Part shown: piece by piece, positions 8,907 to 52,828 of the stretch
Numbering within the stretch: the stretch's first letter is position 1
Layout: each line of letters starts with the position of its first letter
Assembly (NCBI RefSeq): GCF_022095675.1
Contig: NZ_JAHYSG010000047.1
Coordinates: forward strand, 22,779-86,778
Source of the DNA: Dactylosporangium sp. AC04546
GTDB lineage: Bacteria > Actinomycetota > Actinomycetes > Mycobacteriales > Micromonosporaceae
Length of the DNA: 64,000 bases
Direction: 5' to 3'
Notes under the pieces: generated by a model
Told to the model about the DNA's origin: nothing
The model's database searches: none
What the model saw: the letters and a program-made list of their open reading frames with translations, nothing else
Translations under genes and position numbers: made by a program

Positions 8907-9538
8907 CACAGCATCATGACAGCCTCGCTGCGGCCCACCTCGGGAGCCGTCGGGGGCAGCGACTCGTACTTCTCCAGCAGCGCGTGCAGCACGAACACGT
9001 ACGGCGACCGCGACACAAGCCCCGAGACCGTCGCCGTGACGCGGGTGCAGCCGGTGCCGGGCGCCACCGCCTGCCAGGTCCAGCCGGGCTGGGGGCCGTA
9101 GGTGAAGAACTGGGGCACGGCGGCCAGCTGGTACTCGGTGATGGCCGGGTCGCCGATGTTCCACCAGCTGACCGTGGCCGTCGTGGTGCCGGGCGTCACG
9201 TCGAGGCCGTTGACGACGCCTGGGCGGACCACGCCGGTGCACTCCGACGGGCTGGCGCTCGGCGTCGCCCGGGACGGCGAGGCCGTCCTGAACGGGGAGA
9301 TCGAGGCGATCGGGCCCCGCGCGGGCGTGCCCGTCGTGAGGCCGGGGGTCGGGACGGCGTCGCCCTTGAGGTACACCGTCTTCTGGGGAAGGTCGAGCAC
9401 CTTGCCGCTGCCCTTGGAGGTCCCGCCCGACGACGACCCGCCGCCCAGCCCGGGCAGCATGCCGCAGCCGGTCACGCCGGCCAGCAACGCGGCCGACAGC
9501 GCCAGGGCCGTGCCGATGCGCCTCCTCACCTCGGGCAC
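8906..9538 (-). CDS. secreted lipoprotein with fibronectin-III-like domain
   Basis: A 210-residue protein with a lipoprotein signal (LLAGVTGCG, Cys near residue 25), a Ser/Gly-rich linker, a Pro/Thr/Ser-rich stretch (about residues 60-98) and a C-terminal beta-sandwich-like region (about 100-200; GLDVTPGTTTATVSWWNIGD) resembling an Fn3 module. It is likely displayed outside the membrane. It is coupled to the TIGR03089 gene downstream and follows uppP by 28 bases on the same strand, so all may share a transcript. No enzymatic motif is seen. Confidence 0.7.
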   Translation of the reverse strand: MPEVRRRIGTALALSAALLAGVTGCGMLPGLGGGSSSGGTSKGSGKVLDLPQKTVYLKGDAVPTPGLTTGTPARGPIASISPFRTASPSRATPSASPSECTGVVRPGVVNGLDVTPGTTTATVSWWNIGDPAITEYQLAAVPQFFTYGPQPGWTWQAVAPGTGCTRVTATVSGLVSRSPYVFVLHALLEKYESLPPTAPEVGRSEAVMML

Positions 9539-9566
9539 ATCGGCACGGCGCCGGTGGTTCTGAGCG

Positions 9567-10400
9567 TCAGGTCGCCTCGATGGTGCCCGTGCCGACGAGG
9601 AGCAGGACGACGGTGCCGAGGATCACGCGGTACCAGATGAAGATGGTGTAGTTGTGCTTCGCGATGAACCTCAGCAGCCAGGCGACGGCGAGGTAGCCGA
9701 CGATGCCGCTCACGACCGTCGCGGTGATGGTCGCGGCCCACCCGACGCCGTTGGCGATGTTGTCGTACTCGTCGGTGACCTGGAGCACGGTGGCCGCCAG
9801 CAGGGCCGGGATGGACAGGAAGAACGACAGCCGGGTCACCGTCACGCGGTCGAAGTCGCGCAGCAGGCCGGCCGACATCGTGGCGCCCGACCGGGACACG
9901 CCGGGAATCAGGGCGAGCGCCTGCGCGCAGCCGATGATGAGCGTGTCCTTCCAGGTCACGTCCTCCTCGTGGCGCTGCTGGGTGGCGGCGCGGTCGGCGA
10001 ACCACATCACGCCGGACCAGCCGATGAGGGCGAACCCGACGAACCACAGGCTGCGCAGTGTGGTCTCGACCTGGTCCTTGAACAGCAGGCCGATGACCGC
10101 GATCGGGATCGAGCCGATGATGACCATCCAGCCGAACCGGTAGTCGCGGTCGCGGTGCGCCTTCGAGAACAGGCCGCGGAAGAACGCGGGGACGATCCGG
10201 GCGATGTCCCGCCGCAGGTAGATCGTGGTGGCGAGAACGGCGCCGCTCTGGATGATCGCGGTGAACGCGGTGACGTCGGGGTCGTCGATGTTGTACCCGA
10301 GCAGCTTCTCCAGGATCGTCAGGTGGCCCGTGCTGGAGATCGGCAGGAACTCGGTGAGCCCCTCGACGGCGCCGAGGAGGATCGCCTCGAAGATGTTCAC
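9567..10400 (-). CDS. uppP: undecaprenyl-diphosphatase
   Basis: A 277-residue polytopic membrane enzyme that dephosphorylates undecaprenyl pyrophosphate, recycling the lipid carrier for peptidoglycan synthesis. Both BacA/UppP signatures are present: EGLTEFLPISSTGH (about residues 13-26) and PGVSRSGAT (about 171-179), with about eight hydrophobic helices. The GTG at 10400 overlaps the stop of the ATP-grasp gene by 4 bases, so it is translated from the same transcript. Confidence 0.95.
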   Translation of the reverse strand: MNIFEAILLGAVEGLTEFLPISSTGHLTILEKLLGYNIDDPDVTAFTAIIQSGAVLATTIYLRRDIARIVPAFFRGLFSKAHRDRDYRFGWMVIIGSIPIAVIGLLFKDQVETTLRSLWFVGFALIGWSGVMWFADRAATQQRHEEDVTWKDTLIIGCAQALALIPGVSRSGATMSAGLLRDFDRVTVTRLSFFLSIPALLAATVLQVTDEYDNIANGVGWAATITATVVSGIVGYLAVAWLLRFIAKHNYTIFIWYRVILGTVVLLLVGTGTIEAT

Positions 10401-49352: not shown

Positions 49353-51140
49353 ATGATCATCACACTGGTCAGCGACACGTTCAACGTCGGGAACAACGGC
49401 ACGACCATATCGGCGATGCGCTTTGCCGCGACCCTCATCTCGCGGGGGCATACGGTGCGCGTGGTCGCGTGCGGTGAACCGGGCGGCGTCACCGGGCCGG
49501 AAATGTACTGGGTGCCGGAGCTCGTCGTGCCGATCGCCAGTCGCCTCGCGCACCACCAGAACACGGTGTTCGGCAAACCCGTCCGGCAGGTCCTGATCGA
49601 GGCGATTCAGGGCGCCGACGTCGTGCACATCTATCAGCCGTGGCCGCTGGGCCGGGCCGCGGAACGCATCGCGCGGCAGCTCGGGGTGCCGGCCGTGGCC
49701 GCGTTTCACGTTCAGCCCGAGAACATCACGTACAACATCGGCCTGGGCTGGTTCCGCCCGGCCGCGCATCTTGTCTACCTCCTGCTACGGCTCATGTTCT
49801 ACCGCCGGTTCACCGACATCCACTGCCCGTCGACGTTCATCGCGGCACAGCTGCGCCAGCACGGGTACCGTGCCCGGCTCCACGTCATTTCCAACGGCGT
49901 CGGTGGCGCTTTCCGGCCGGGTCCGCCGCGCGTTCGGGGCGCCGACGACCGCTTCCGGATCCTGATGGTCGGCCGGTTCTCGCCCGAGAAACGGCAGGAC
50001 GTGCTGATCCGGGCCGTGCGGCGTTCGCGCCATGCGAGGAGGATTCAGCTGTACCTCGCGGGACACGGCCCGAGCGAGAAGCGTCTGCGGCGGATGGGCG
50101 CCAAACTGCCGAATCCCGCGCGCTTCGGCTACTACTCGCAGGACGACCTCGTCGACCTCATCCGCGACTGCGATCTGTACGTCCACGCCTCCGACGTCGA
50201 AATCGAGGGCCTGTCGTGCATGGAGGCGTTCTCCTGCGGACTCGTCCCGGTCATCTCCGACAGCCGCCGGAGCGCGACCGGCCAGTTCGCGCTCGGCCCC
50301 GAAAATCTGTTCCGCGCGGGCGACCCGGCGTCCCTGGCGGAACGCATCGACGCGTGGATCGACGGCCCGGCCGCCCGCGAATCCGCCTCGGAAACGTACG
50401 CCCGCTACGCCGAACTCTATTCGGTCGACCGCAGCGTCAAGGCGATCGAACGGGTCTACGCCCGGGCCGGCCGCGCCCCAGAGGCACCGGCCGGATACGC
50501 CGGGCGCGTGTACCGCCTCTTCTCGACCGCCTTCTACTACGTGGTGGCGATTCCGCTGCTGTTCCTCTGGACGCGCGTCATTCTGGGCGTGCGCACCGAG
50601 GGCGAGAAGCGCCTCCCCCGCACCGGTGGCGCGCTGACCGTCTGCAACCACGTGCACCTGCTCGACAGCGCACTCGTCGGCCTGGCCCTGTTCCCCCGCC
50701 GCCCGGTGTTCACGTCGGCGCCCATCAATCTGGAGAACCGCTGGTACGGCGCACTGGTGCGATTGCTGGGCGGCGTGCCGGTACCGCAGACGCCCGCCGG
50801 GCTGCCCATGTTCTTCTCGGAGATGGAGCTCTTCCTCGCCCAGGGAAGAATTGTGCACTTCTTCCCCGAGGGTGAGCTGAAGCCGTACGACACGAGCCTG
50901 CGCGACTTCAAACTCGGCGCATTCCACCTGGCCGCCCGGGCCCGAGTGCCGGTGGTCCCGCTGTCGATCCGCTTCACCTCGCCGACAGGCGTGAGCCGCG
51001 TGTTCCGCCGCAAGCCAACGATGGTCATCGTCATCGGCGAGCCCATCGTCCCGGCGACGACGGACCCCAACCACGACCGCCGCATCCGCATGGAGCTCGC
51101 GAAACGCCGTATGCACGACCTCATCACCCGCGCGGCCTAG
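49353..51140 (+). CDS. glycosyltransferase family 4 / 1-acylglycerol-phosphate acyltransferase fusion
   Basis: A 595-residue two-domain enzyme. Residues 1-375 are a GT-B glycosyltransferase of family 4: SDTFNVGNNGTTISAMRFA, ILMVGRFSPEKRQDVLIRAV and the EX7E motif EIEGLSCME. A hydrophobic segment (about 390-412) leads into a PlsC-type acyltransferase with the HX4D motif in NHVHLLDSA (His433, Asp438) and FFPEGELKPYD near residue 510. Such a chain could glycosylate a lipid acceptor and acylate the sugar or lipid at the membrane, as in phosphatidylinositol mannoside or glycolipid synthesis. There is no partner gene nearby. The fusion is continuous with no frameshift. Confidence 0.85.
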   Translation: MIITLVSDTFNVGNNGTTISAMRFAATLISRGHTVRVVACGEPGGVTGPEMYWVPELVVPIASRLAHHQNTVFGKPVRQVLIEAIQGADVVHIYQPWPLGRAAERIARQLGVPAVAAFHVQPENITYNIGLGWFRPAAHLVYLLLRLMFYRRFTDIHCPSTFIAAQLRQHGYRARLHVISNGVGGAFRPGPPRVRGADDRFRILMVGRFSPEKRQDVLIRAVRRSRHARRIQLYLAGHGPSEKRLRRMGAKLPNPARFGYYSQDDLVDLIRDCDLYVHASDVEIEGLSCMEAFSCGLVPVISDSRRSATGQFALGPENLFRAGDPASLAERIDAWIDGPAARESASETYARYAELYSVDRSVKAIERVYARAGRAPEAPAGYAGRVYRLFSTAFYYVVAIPLLFLWTRVILGVRTEGEKRLPRTGGALTVCNHVHLLDSALVGLALFPRRPVFTSAPINLENRWYGALVRLLGGVPVPQTPAGLPMFFSEMELFLAQGRIVHFFPEGELKPYDTSLRDFKLGAFHLAARARVPVVPLSIRFTSPTGVSRVFRRKPTMVIVIGEPIVPATTDPNHDRRIRMELAKRRMHDLITRAA

Positions 51141-51152
51141 CCGCCGCCGGCC

Positions 51153-51623
51153 TCAGCCGGCCACCCGACGACGAACGTCTTCGATGAAGGGCGATTGCAG
51201 CAGGTGTACCCAGGGCAGGAACAGCGGCTGCGGGAGATCATCGAAGGTGAACCATCCCTGGCGCGTGAACTTGTCGGGTTCCAGGACCTCGGGCTCGCCC
51301 TCCGGGCAGTCGCCGAGCATCCAGATGGTGACGTAGTGCCGGTCCTCGTCGGTGAAGACGTCGTTCGTGACGCCGCCGAAGTGGAGATCGACGACCGTCA
51401 GGCCGGTTTCCTCGGCCACCTCGCGCGCCGCCACCTGCTCGAAGGACTCGCCGAACTCGAGGTGCCCGCCCGGCACCGACCACGATCCGGCGCCGTGTGA
51501 GCCGCGCCGCTGTCCCATGAGAAACCGTCCGTCGCGGATGACGAACACGCCGATGCCGACCCTGACGTTCTGCACAACCGCGCACGATACGGCGTCGCCG
51601 CGTCCGGAGGACACGCGGTACAT
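51153..51623 (-). CDS. Nudix hydrolase
   Basis: A 156-residue pyrophosphohydrolase. The Nudix box is complete (GGHLEFGESFEQVAAREVAE followed by ETGLTV, about residues 52-77), preceded by RVGIGVFVIRDGRFLMGQR. The C-terminal W and F residues resemble MutT/NUDT15-type enzymes acting on modified nucleotides. ATG 51623 has GGAGG only 2 bases upstream; GTG 51614 would have better spacing. It is the last gene after the three microprotein copies, 24 bases away, and may share their transcript. Confidence 0.85.
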   Translation of the reverse strand: MYRVSSGRGDAVSCAVVQNVRVGIGVFVIRDGRFLMGQRRGSHGAGSWSVPGGHLEFGESFEQVAAREVAEETGLTVVDLHFGGVTNDVFTDEDRHYVTIWMLGDCPEGEPEVLEPDKFTRQGWFTFDDLPQPLFLPWVHLLQSPFIEDVRRRVAG

Positions 51624-51647
51624 GACCTCCGGACGCGGCGAGGAATG

Positions 51648-51755
51648 TCAGCCGCCCTGCTCGAACGGGGCGCCGATCGTGTACAGCAGAGTCGCGAGCG
51701 ACGCGAGCGTGAAAACTGCGAGAACCACGCGGCGCCAGGAAATCGTTGCGGTCAT
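51648..51755 (-). CDS. 35-residue membrane microprotein, copy C
   Basis: Third in transcription order of three near-identical small genes with an exact 133-base period. The 35-residue product has a basic N-terminus with WRR (residues 7-9), one membrane helix (about 10-27) and the outside tail GAPFEQGG. AGAGGAG lies 7 bases before the ATG. Unlike copies A and B, its tail has no His. Function unknown; too short for usual gene calling. Confidence 0.75.
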   Translation of the reverse strand: MTATISWRRVVLAVFTLASLATLLYTIGAPFEQGG

Positions 51756-51780
51756 CGTGTGCTCCTCTGAGGATTGGTGG

Positions 51781-51888
51781 TCAGCCGCCGTGCTCGTGCG
51801 GAGCGCCGATCGTGTACAGCAGCGTCGCGAGCGACGCGAGCGTGAAAACTGCGAGAACCACGCGGCGCCAGGAAATGGTCGCGGTCAT
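51781..51888 (-). CDS. 35-residue membrane microprotein, copy B
   Basis: Second copy. Residues 1-30 are identical to copies A and C, and the tail is GAPHEHGG. AGAGGAG lies 6 bases before the ATG. It is separated from its neighbours by 25-base spacers that also repeat. By the positive-inside rule the His-containing tail should lie outside the membrane. Confidence 0.78.
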   Translation of the reverse strand: MTATISWRRVVLAVFTLASLATLLYTIGAPHEHGG

Positions 51889-51913
51889 GATGTGCTCCTC
51901 TGCGGGTTGGTGG

Positions 51914-52021
51914 TCAGCCGCCGTGCGTGTGCGGAGCGCCGATCGTGTACAGCAGGGTCGCCAGCGACGCGAGCGTGAAAACTGCGAGAACCACGCGGCG
52001 CCAGGAAATCGTTGCGGTCAT
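51914..52021 (-). CDS. 35-residue membrane microprotein, copy A
   Basis: First copy in transcription order. Its ATG overlaps the stop codon of the DUF5317-like gene (ATGA), with GGAGGTG 4 bases upstream. The tail is GAPHTHGG. Across the three copies every base change in codons 1-30 is synonymous, which argues strongly that the peptides are translated and under selection. Confidence 0.8.
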   Translation of the reverse strand: MTATISWRRVVLAVFTLASLATLLYTIGAPHTHGG

Positions 52022-52623
52022 AGGTCACCTCCTACCGGAATCGCGGTGCGCGTTTCTTGGACCGTTGCTGACTCCCGCCGGTGCCGGCGCATCGCGAGCG
52101 CCACGACCGCGCAGGAGCCACCGCTGATCAGCAGGTCGCCGAGGCTGACGACCTTTCTCAGCGGAGCGATGGGAATGATGTCGCCAAGGTACGAAAGCCG
52201 CGTTCCGTCACCGGCCGGCACATTCTTCGGCGTGGTGATGCCGGCCCTGAGCCCGGCCGCTTCGGCCGCCGCCGGCGAGTACGGCATCCGCCCGTTCAAC
52301 CCGATCGCGACCGCATTGAGCGCGGCCCCGAGCACGATCGCAGCTCCGGCGATCCGCAGCCCGGCGGGCCAGTGCCGCAGGTTGACCCCGAGCCACAGCA
52401 ACACGGGCGCGAACACGACGGCCAGCATGGCGCGGTCACTGACGAGCTCCCGCACGAGCGGCACGTAGTAATGGGCGACCTGGAGCCCGGCGGCGAGCCA
52501 CAGCAGCCAGAGCCCACGGATTCGAATGGCCCGGAACCCGGCCAGCCGCCCACCGGCCAGATACCCGATCCCGACGCCAAGCAGAGGTGGAATGACAACC
52601 AGCACCAGCATGCGAATGGACAC
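52018..52623 (-). CDS. DUF5317-like membrane protein
   Basis: A 201-residue membrane protein with about five hydrophobic helices. It contains the stretch LNAVAIGLNGRMPYSPAAAE (about residues 108-127) that I associate with the DUF5317 family, found mainly in Firmicutes and Actinobacteria and of unknown function. GTG 52623 has GGGGAG 7 bases upstream; ATG 52611 is possible. It leads an operon with the three microproteins and perhaps the Nudix gene. Confidence 0.7.
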   Translation of the reverse strand: MSIRMLVLVVIPPLLGVGIGYLAGGRLAGFRAIRIRGLWLLWLAAGLQVAHYYVPLVRELVSDRAMLAVVFAPVLLWLGVNLRHWPAGLRIAGAAIVLGAALNAVAIGLNGRMPYSPAAAEAAGLRAGITTPKNVPAGDGTRLSYLGDIIPIAPLRKVVSLGDLLISGGSCAVVALAMRRHRRESATVQETRTAIPVGGDL

Positions 52624-52828
52624 GCCGCATCTCCCCGTTTTCGCCGCGCGGTTACCATGCCATTCGTAACAGAGACAAACCCGAATCAAATGGGTCAAAC
52701 GTACAACGTCGAACGTCAATACGTCACAAAACTCAACATGCACGGCCACTGTTGTGGCGACACACGTATCAGCTTGAGTATCAGGTTTGCCTGTTGCTCA
52801 CGGCGCCCGCGACAGCCTGGAGGAGTTC
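52624..52828. other. divergent intergenic region with GTATCAG direct repeats
   Basis: A 205-base, A/T-richer gap between the DUF5317-like gene and a small plus-strand gene. Two GTATCAG copies (52766-52772 and 52778-52784) are spaced 12 bases apart. They could be part of a regulator site or promoter. Confidence 0.35.

Follow-up and report, generated by a model that had tools for sequence, protein, structure and literature searches.

Why does an actinomycete keep three small genes in a row that encode almost the same membrane-type peptide? In Dactylosporangium sp. AC04546, three genes of 35 codons follow the gene of a DUF5317 membrane protein on the minus strand of the window, the whole stretch of 64,000 nucleotides that was analysed (Table 1). 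A sequence-only reading of the window had described this arrangement, and its description agrees with the ORFs throughout. The start-to-start distances are exactly 133 and 133 nucleotides, each copy has a strong, purine-rich ribosome site, and the TGA of the upstream gene overlaps the first ATG. As it had also reported, residues 1-30 are the same in all copies; codons 3, 4, 20, 22, and 29 vary, all synonymously, and non-synonymous change is confined to codons 31-33 (HTH, HEH, FEQ). In pairwise comparison the core has 11 synonymous and 0 non-synonymous differences (pS 0.14, pN 0), and the tail positions have 0 and 10. Directly past copy 3, a hairpin overlies the first ATG (51623) of the NUDIX ORF. 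It may be an operon end or attenuator, or it may control the NUDIX gene.

Table 1. Features of the microprotein locus (positions are those of the window)
Feature	Position	Strand	Remarks
DUF5317 gene	52018..52623	-	201 aa; five predicted long helices; PF17248 match; stop overlaps first microprotein start (ATGA)
Shine-Dalgarno AGGAGG, copy 1	52028..52033	-	from sequence; within the end of the DUF5317 gene
Microprotein copy 1	51914..52021	-	35 aa; tail HTHGG
Tail codons, copy 1 (HTHGG)	51917..51931	-	identical tail in G215
Shine-Dalgarno GAGGAG, copy 2	51895..51900	-	from sequence
Microprotein copy 2	51781..51888	-	35 aa; tail HEHGG
Tail codons, copy 2 (HEHGG)	51784..51798	-	identical tail in 13 genomes including that of the window
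Shine-Dalgarno GAGGAG, copy 3	51762..51767	-	from sequence
Microprotein copy 3	51648..51755	-	35 aa; tail FEQGG
Tail codons, copy 3 (FEQGG)	51651..51665	-	identical tail in G130 and G215
Hairpin	51595..51641	-	19-nt arms, 95% complementary inverted repeat; directly past copy 3, before the NUDIX gene

The simplest explanation is a recent tandem DNA repeat that has no function and is open by chance. The 133-bp units are 83-92% identical to the reference copy, as such a repeat would be. However, core changes are synonymous only, the tails are conserved, and the family is kept with different spacers in three bacterial families. Chance is excluded because the frame and the core are kept in other genomes and the core differences in the window are all synonymous. 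A non-coding or functionless repeat is ruled out by the homologues and the synonymous-only core changes, and its probability is practically nil.

The sequence-only reading had proposed comparing the peptide, its copy number, and its tails in related genomes. Clear relatives with the same frame were found in a protein search of 101 such genomes. A profile of 14 members (A1) matched 49 of 300 Micromonosporaceae genomes at E <= 0.1 and 27 of these at E <= 1e-5; matches weaker than 1e-5 lie mostly within long open frames and are not counted. With a profile of 39 members (A2), the family is found in 28 of 354 Micromonosporaceae genomes at E <= 1e-4. It is present in three of the seven genomes of the window's genus (G000-G006) and in two of 35 genomes of the genus Actinacidiphila, the second of which has the tails SWGGG and SWTGG (DNA read by eye). 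Named loci include those of Dactylosporangium sucinum, Dactylosporangium fulvum, Rugosimonospora africana, Micromonospora yasonensis, Micromonospora fulviviridis, four Catellatospora species, and Actinacidiphila bryophytorum. Nonomuraea gerenzanensis, which belongs to another order, has a DUF5317 gene, the ATGA overlap, and then a peptide gene ending LLYTVGAPWDSH; its tail WDSH is also found in G116. Peptides are 26-35 residues long. There are 1-15 copies in a row and 1-17 in a genome, with differing tail sets. The two largest arrays have 15 copies (L083, in G215) and 11 copies (L069, in Actinacidiphila). G215, which shares its genus with G206 and G245, has 2 more copies in L084.

The family was also sought outside chromosomes. 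A scan of viral contigs with the A2 profile and a plasmid search with the microprotein gave no relative, and within this scope a mobile element or phage gene was rejected. The plasmid search with DUF5317 gave a single record, the 11.85 Mb replicon of Nonomuraea gerenzanensis (NZ_LT559118.1, L231). This record is filed as a plasmid, and its size suggests a chromosome.

The peptides are closely associated with DUF5317. Among the 300 Micromonosporaceae genomes, 26 of the 27 with the peptide (E <= 1e-5) also have DUF5317, compared to three of the 273 others (Fisher p = 4.7e-33). The peptide is found without DUF5317 in G333, and DUF5317 without the A-type peptide in G048, G175, and G204. In total 29 of these genomes have DUF5317, encoded by 37 genes. 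A peptide ORF lies beside 35 of the 36 DUF5317 genes outside the window (36 of 37 with the window), compared to 6 of 401 background ORFs from these regions; this rule was written after the peptides were known, and the background ORFs are mechanical. Downstream, the rule covers up to 400 nt from the stop codon in both groups; upstream, it reaches 600 nt from the domain match for DUF5317 and 500 nt from the start codon for background ORFs. The sole DUF5317 gene without a peptide ORF is G299:C13. The peptide genes are upstream of DUF5317 in seven A-type cases and downstream in the others. Arrays without a nearby DUF5317 gene (L032, L034, L079, L091, L093, and L095) are all in DUF5317-bearing genomes except that of G333.

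All but one of the DUF5317 genes without an A-type peptide adjoin a small peptide of another kind. In five cases this is a longer type located upstream of DUF5317 (L133, L134, L135, L139, and L140; MEKKKPLKDR...TLYTIAAPMIGNDPKP and kin; another example is ...LLTTLYTIAAPMIGNDPKP). In two cases it is a third type located downstream, ending VAPYTQGL or VAPYNSPH (L136 and L138). The microproteins are thus a real, unnamed, and selected multicopy family of small membrane-type peptides linked to DUF5317. This bears out part of the suggestion of the sequence-only reading, "a multicopy small membrane subunit or signal", and subunit and signal are still the right alternatives.

The microproteins may be permanent single-pass subunits of a DUF5317 complex. 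In such a hetero-oligomer the different tails would adjust or vary the outer face, and nothing would be released. KdpF, CydX, and AcrZ are known examples of small single-pass subunits. The ATGA coupling and the strict pairing suit a stoichiometric complex. Two cases in which DUF5317 and a peptide are read in one frame also count in favour of subunits. On a contig of 1,039 bases (P0029) the DUF5317 frame continues into a peptide with the ending LLLFTVGAPHEHGG; in G221 (L078) it likewise extends into a peptide, and both end in GAPHEHGG. A model of the P0029 fusion gave no confident placement of the tail. On the other hand, 1-17 copies per genome with different tail sets would be odd for a fixed complex. 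In L078 the 3' end of the DUF5317 ORF (9395-10189) also contains, in another frame, a microprotein ORF (9484-9591), so that one stretch would encode both. The same overlap is found in P0013, P0048, and P0097 (by eye for proteins).

No third partner is seen. When the proteins of 37 regions were clustered by BLAST, with a shadow frame of DUF5317 set aside, DUF5317 was found in 28 regions and the next clusters in 12 (ABC ATPase by eye), 9, 7, and 5 (response regulator by eye); no gene except DUF5317 is in more than 12 of the 37. Ten proteins flanking three arrays are a sugar kinase, a cupin, a PilZ protein, an MFS protein, a GH48 protein, a GDSL lipase, a DUF6461 protein, an ABC ATPase, a DUF6297 protein, and an alpha/beta hydrolase. 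Among these ten and five neighbours from the window, 15 proteins in all, no receptor stands out.

What kind of protein is DUF5317? The window protein matches PF17248 with 67.2 bits (E about 2.1e-18 to 3.5e-18), above the curated cut-off of 25 bits. Its true start is probably the GTG at 52623 rather than the mechanical ORF start at 52749, because homologues start about there and GGGGAG is found upstream of this GTG. An AF2 model (pLDDT 90.6) has five long helices and a strand-bearing stretch at residues 111-160. This stretch contains many of the residues that are invariant among 112 aligned sequences related to the window protein (NGRMPY ... PKN ... TR ... D ... SxGD), including the K of P-K-N. 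The DUF5317 proteins beside the longer peptides do not have this K (by eye). From the positive-inside rule, we infer that the stretch is outside the cell, on the same side as the tails. Fold searches gave no clear match in solved or viral folds, a profile search of PDB sequences gave nothing credible, and a Pfam search at high E gave only DUF5317 itself and noise. In PADLOC and PHROGs (E <= 0.01), the window protein, two homologues, and microprotein copy 1 matched 0 families. The SxGD motif with an upstream Asp resembles that of GxGD-type aspartyl proteases by eye; this assignment is not claimed, as the PDB, Pfam, and fold searches did not support it.

DUF5317 is also common in other Actinomycetota. 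It is found in 108 of 396 genomes drawn from the phylum and in 100 of 394 drawn from the class. At the 60 best-scoring distant loci, 30 from each draw, a convincing peptide neighbour is found once (L150, 2058-2141: MRKWTLLRWLLAVAAIVVAGGAPTKWA). Weak small ORFs near DUF5317 in L142, L143, L149, L152, L163, and L193 were judged by eye to be due to chance. Since most distant DUF5317 proteins seem to lack a peptide, DUF5317 should have some role without it. One branch of DUF5317 would therefore appear to have recruited, or kept, the peptides.

The peptides themselves share a common body, the carrier. Each of the 103 profiled copies has a basic residue ahead of a hydrophobic run, with K, R, or H at the boundary of the run, and a motif of the form YTxG-AP. 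Counted from the P of A-P, Y is found at -4 in 95 of the 103 copies, T at -3 in 98, G at -1 in 102, and A at +1 in 102. The residues at -3 and -1 before A-P are both small in all 103 copies, a signal-peptidase-like pattern as read from the sequence; the two V-A-P peptides (G204 and G299:C66) break this rule. The run is 19 residues long in 60 copies, 16 in 35, and of another length in 8. The tail has five residues in 96 copies, four in 6, and six in 1. With start codons assigned by rule in 102 of the 103 copies, mean length is 31.9 residues, mean net charge is +1.2, and 89 of 102 copies have a ribosome site with at least four matches to AGGAGG. The 62 gaps between copies range from -4 to 112 nt with a median of 8 nt, and in many arrays they are 2-5 nt.

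These dimensions bring to mind the type I toxins of the Ldr and Fst kind. In these toxin-antitoxin systems, an antisense RNA overlaps each toxin gene. As small membrane peptides silenced in this manner, the microproteins would resemble Ldr in length, in the single hydrophobic segment, and in tandem copies. However, the short spacers leave little room for antisense genes, the translation signals are strong, the genes are coupled to DUF5317, and typed tails would have no role. Such toxins are therefore a very improbable explanation.

Codon comparisons in 13 chosen regions indicate purifying selection on the core (13 of 15 copies of L083, 4 of 6 of L086, and 2 of 3 each of L096 and L102 were included). 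In the 11-copy array L069, pN/pS is 0.25 in the core and 1.95 in the tail. In L083 the values are 0.48 and 0.67, with tail pS (0.78) near saturation. In several other arrays the tail value does not exceed 1 (L085 0.90, L086 1.00, L035 0.17, L084 0.08, L101 0.20), and the core of L101 reaches 1.25 on few sites. Excess tail change is clear only in the window and L069.

How do the tails vary, then? In a tally by text pattern, which includes the longer type and misses one copy each in G221 and G297 as well as the V-A-P types, 104 copies from 31 genomes have 51 tail strings. The commonest are HEHGG (13 genomes), MTEGS (9), YEHGG (9), and YNHGG (5). Many tails recur in other species and genera. The G215 array contains all three tails of the window (HTHGG, HEHGG, and FEQGG), and HLSIG and HISTG co-occur in G215, G245, and G297 on different cores. 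Of the 51 strings, 34 are found in one genome only, among them every one of the 11 that the tally has for Actinacidiphila bryophytorum.

Within an array, tails are not repeated. All tails differ in 27 of 27 multi-copy regions. When tails were shuffled among copies, over all 30 genomes, 9.0 redundant copies were expected within genomes and one was observed (HEHGG, at two loci of G308; p about 1e-4). In a second tally, within loci, there are 0 identical tail pairs compared to 9.1 expected (p = 5e-5), and 0 compared to 3.5 without the two largest arrays (p = 0.02). Note that the shuffles exclude the longer and V-A-P types and treat copies as independent although the genomes are kin. Of 72 informative copies, 35 have the nearest core in their own genome, and the nearest core has the same tail in 21. 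Cores are so partly homogenised inside genomes, with the tails kept apart. Non-redundancy of tails is a general result: an array is a repertoire with one copy per tail type.

The sequence-only reading had suggested that the outside tip is diversified, perhaps for metal or partner binding. In the window and in the 11-copy array, the tail does vary more than the core. This change is not free, as many tails recur across genera and are non-redundant in a genome; random diversification of the tip was rejected for the same reasons. Metal binding fails as a general role, since many tails have no His (e.g., MTEGS, SQMS, EWTGG, and DYVGG).

A non-redundant and recycled repertoire would suit an arms race, and so would the patchy spread (28 of 354 genomes). 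The arrays could encode multi-peptide antimicrobials resembling leaderless bacteriocins, each tail with its own target and DUF5317 as the immunity or export protein. Tandem small ORFs near a membrane protein, most with their own ribosome site (89 of 102), are a feature in common with multi-peptide leaderless bacteriocins. The microproteins differ from the aureocin A53 type, to which this comparison is confined, in a common core with typed tails, in mean length (32 residues compared to 50), and in mean charge (+1.2 compared to 4.63, the values for aureocin A53-like peptides in an extract of PMC11580447). Moreover, unlike an immunity gene, DUF5317 is common in other Actinomycetota, mostly without peptides, and no transporter is found in more than 12 of the 37 regions. 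An antimicrobial role is thus considered unlikely.

The reading that we favour, with a probability of about 0.45, is that each microprotein is a carrier of the Sec type, and that the short peptide which it displays or releases outside the cell is specific to its type and acts together with DUF5317. The operon would yield the five-TM DUF5317 protein together with several small carriers, all built alike: the N-terminus would be short and basic, the hydrophobic segment after it would be of the Sec type and end in L-Y-T-x-G-A-P, and some five residues would form the tail, outside the cell. All carriers would share this body, and the information would reside in the tail, which, as the most economical mechanism, would be read outside the cell with a different meaning for each type. 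The outer stretch of DUF5317 may work with the tails as a binder, sensor, or maturation protein. Most probably the tails would serve as extracellular peptides in the manner of ligands or pheromones, whether they stay on the anchored carrier or are set free by a cut such as TxG|AP.

Carrier anatomy points both ways. The -3/-1 pattern speaks for a cut that would free AP and the tail, as does the 16-residue run in a third of the copies. Such a run, seen in 35 of the 103 copies, counts against permanent subunits, and a fixed complex leaves the non-repetition of tails inside an array unexplained. The strict LYTxGAP and the 19-residue run of most other copies (60 of 103), which can span a membrane, would also be in keeping with a stable partner helix. 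The conservation of L-Y-T exceeds what a signal peptidase or export signal should need; this counts against the favoured reading and would fit a specific helix contact equally well. Because the features are divided in this manner, we keep display or release of tails at the figure given above and regard a plain heteromeric complex as a tentative alternative of lesser but real weight.

Display or release by carriers has several analogues. AgrD of the AgrD/AgrB pair is a small membrane-associated precursor whose gene adjoins that of a membrane protein with about 200 residues, and AgrB has a catalytic His and a catalytic Cys. The microproteins likewise are small and membrane-type, and their genes are next to that of a membrane protein of this size. 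DUF5317 differs from AgrB in that no Cys or His is invariant, or nearly so, in the 112 sequences, and no histidine kinase is found among the 15 neighbours scanned. The SHP pheromones of Rgg systems are tiny hydrophobic precursors, some with a C-terminal Gly-Gly. By this description the microproteins would be alike; their partner is different, and no Rgg-like gene is found among the 15 neighbours. RiPP precursor arrays (e.g., those of prochlorosin precursors) have a conserved leader, a variable C-terminal part, and many copies, as do the microproteins. They differ in that the neighbours scanned include no modification enzyme, the tail would lie outside the membrane, and many tails come from a shared repertoire.

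The closest analogues are the propeptides of RRNPPA systems (Phr, NprX, PapR, and AimP). According to extracts of two papers, a small ORF adjoins the partner gene upstream or downstream, and an export segment is followed by a short C-terminal active peptide that is freed by an N-terminal cut (PMC9765709; PMC11343458). The microproteins would have the same layout, with a putative export segment and a putative cut. In RRNPPA systems the precursor bearing the C-terminal pheromone is exported by Sec, and for 71 Rap receptors a pair of propeptide genes is found next to the receptor gene (PMC9765709). Some systems, called chatterers, have several propeptides or different peptides (extracts of PMC9765709 and PMC11343458). 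The differences are also clear. The RRNPPA partner is a cytoplasmic TPR receptor and here it is five-TM DUF5317; the organisms are Actinomycetota, not Bacillota; up to 15 separate ORFs are in one array; and there is no match to a curated family. A TPR-type receptor of RRNPPA was not found among the 15 neighbours scanned, nor among the clusters in at least five of the 37 regions, which were judged by eye. Since there is no such receptor beside the arrays examined and the partner is different, the microproteins may work like RRNPPA propeptides, by analogy, but are no members.

The sequence-only reading knew of no described system of this form, and our searches agree. Copy 1 matched no family in Pfam, NCBIfam, PADLOC, or PHROGs, so that the microproteins add a family without a model in these four curated libraries. 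In a literature search that covered no preprints and few subscription papers, neither DUF5317 nor PF17248 is mentioned, nor is any of the three strings tried from cores or tails. Searches on peptide pheromones and on small membrane proteins in tandem gave either nothing relevant or analogues only. DUF5317, a widespread membrane family that is absent from the literature searched, would here gain its first partner and the first role that can be put to the test. The pattern itself is unusual: one carrier body and many tails, many of them common to genera and unrepeated within an array. It is conceivable, though doubtful as yet, that this is an undescribed kind of actinomycete signalling or recognition, namely a non-redundant repertoire of extracellular peptide words (AP and about five residues), up to 17 per genome and common to genera, with DUF5317 as a new membrane receptor or maturation protein. 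The actinomycete quorum signals named in an extract of a review are gamma-butyrolactones, methylenomycin furans, AI-2, and putative AHL-like molecules (PMC4748050). Should the tails be signals or recognition tags, a repertoire of coded peptides would join these in actinomycetes, and it can be tested directly with synthetic peptides of five to seven residues.

Several smaller observations concern the neighbourhood and architecture of these genes. In the window, positions 49353-51140 encode a 595-aa protein that combines GT4-type glycosyltransferase domains and an acyltransferase domain. In D. fulvum, NUDIX-like and acyltransferase-like genes (by eye) flank an orphan array (L034), as in the window, and the DUF5317 gene with two copies is found at a separate locus (L026). 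In three other Actinomycetota (L151, L167, and L168), the DUF5317 frame extends into a long MFS-like second part (by eye). In L137 the DUF5317 frame is preceded by an apparent GGDEF/EAL stretch (by eye), and a PilZ gene is located near the G215 array (L083, 8176-9036); these two are a hint of a link to c-di-GMP.
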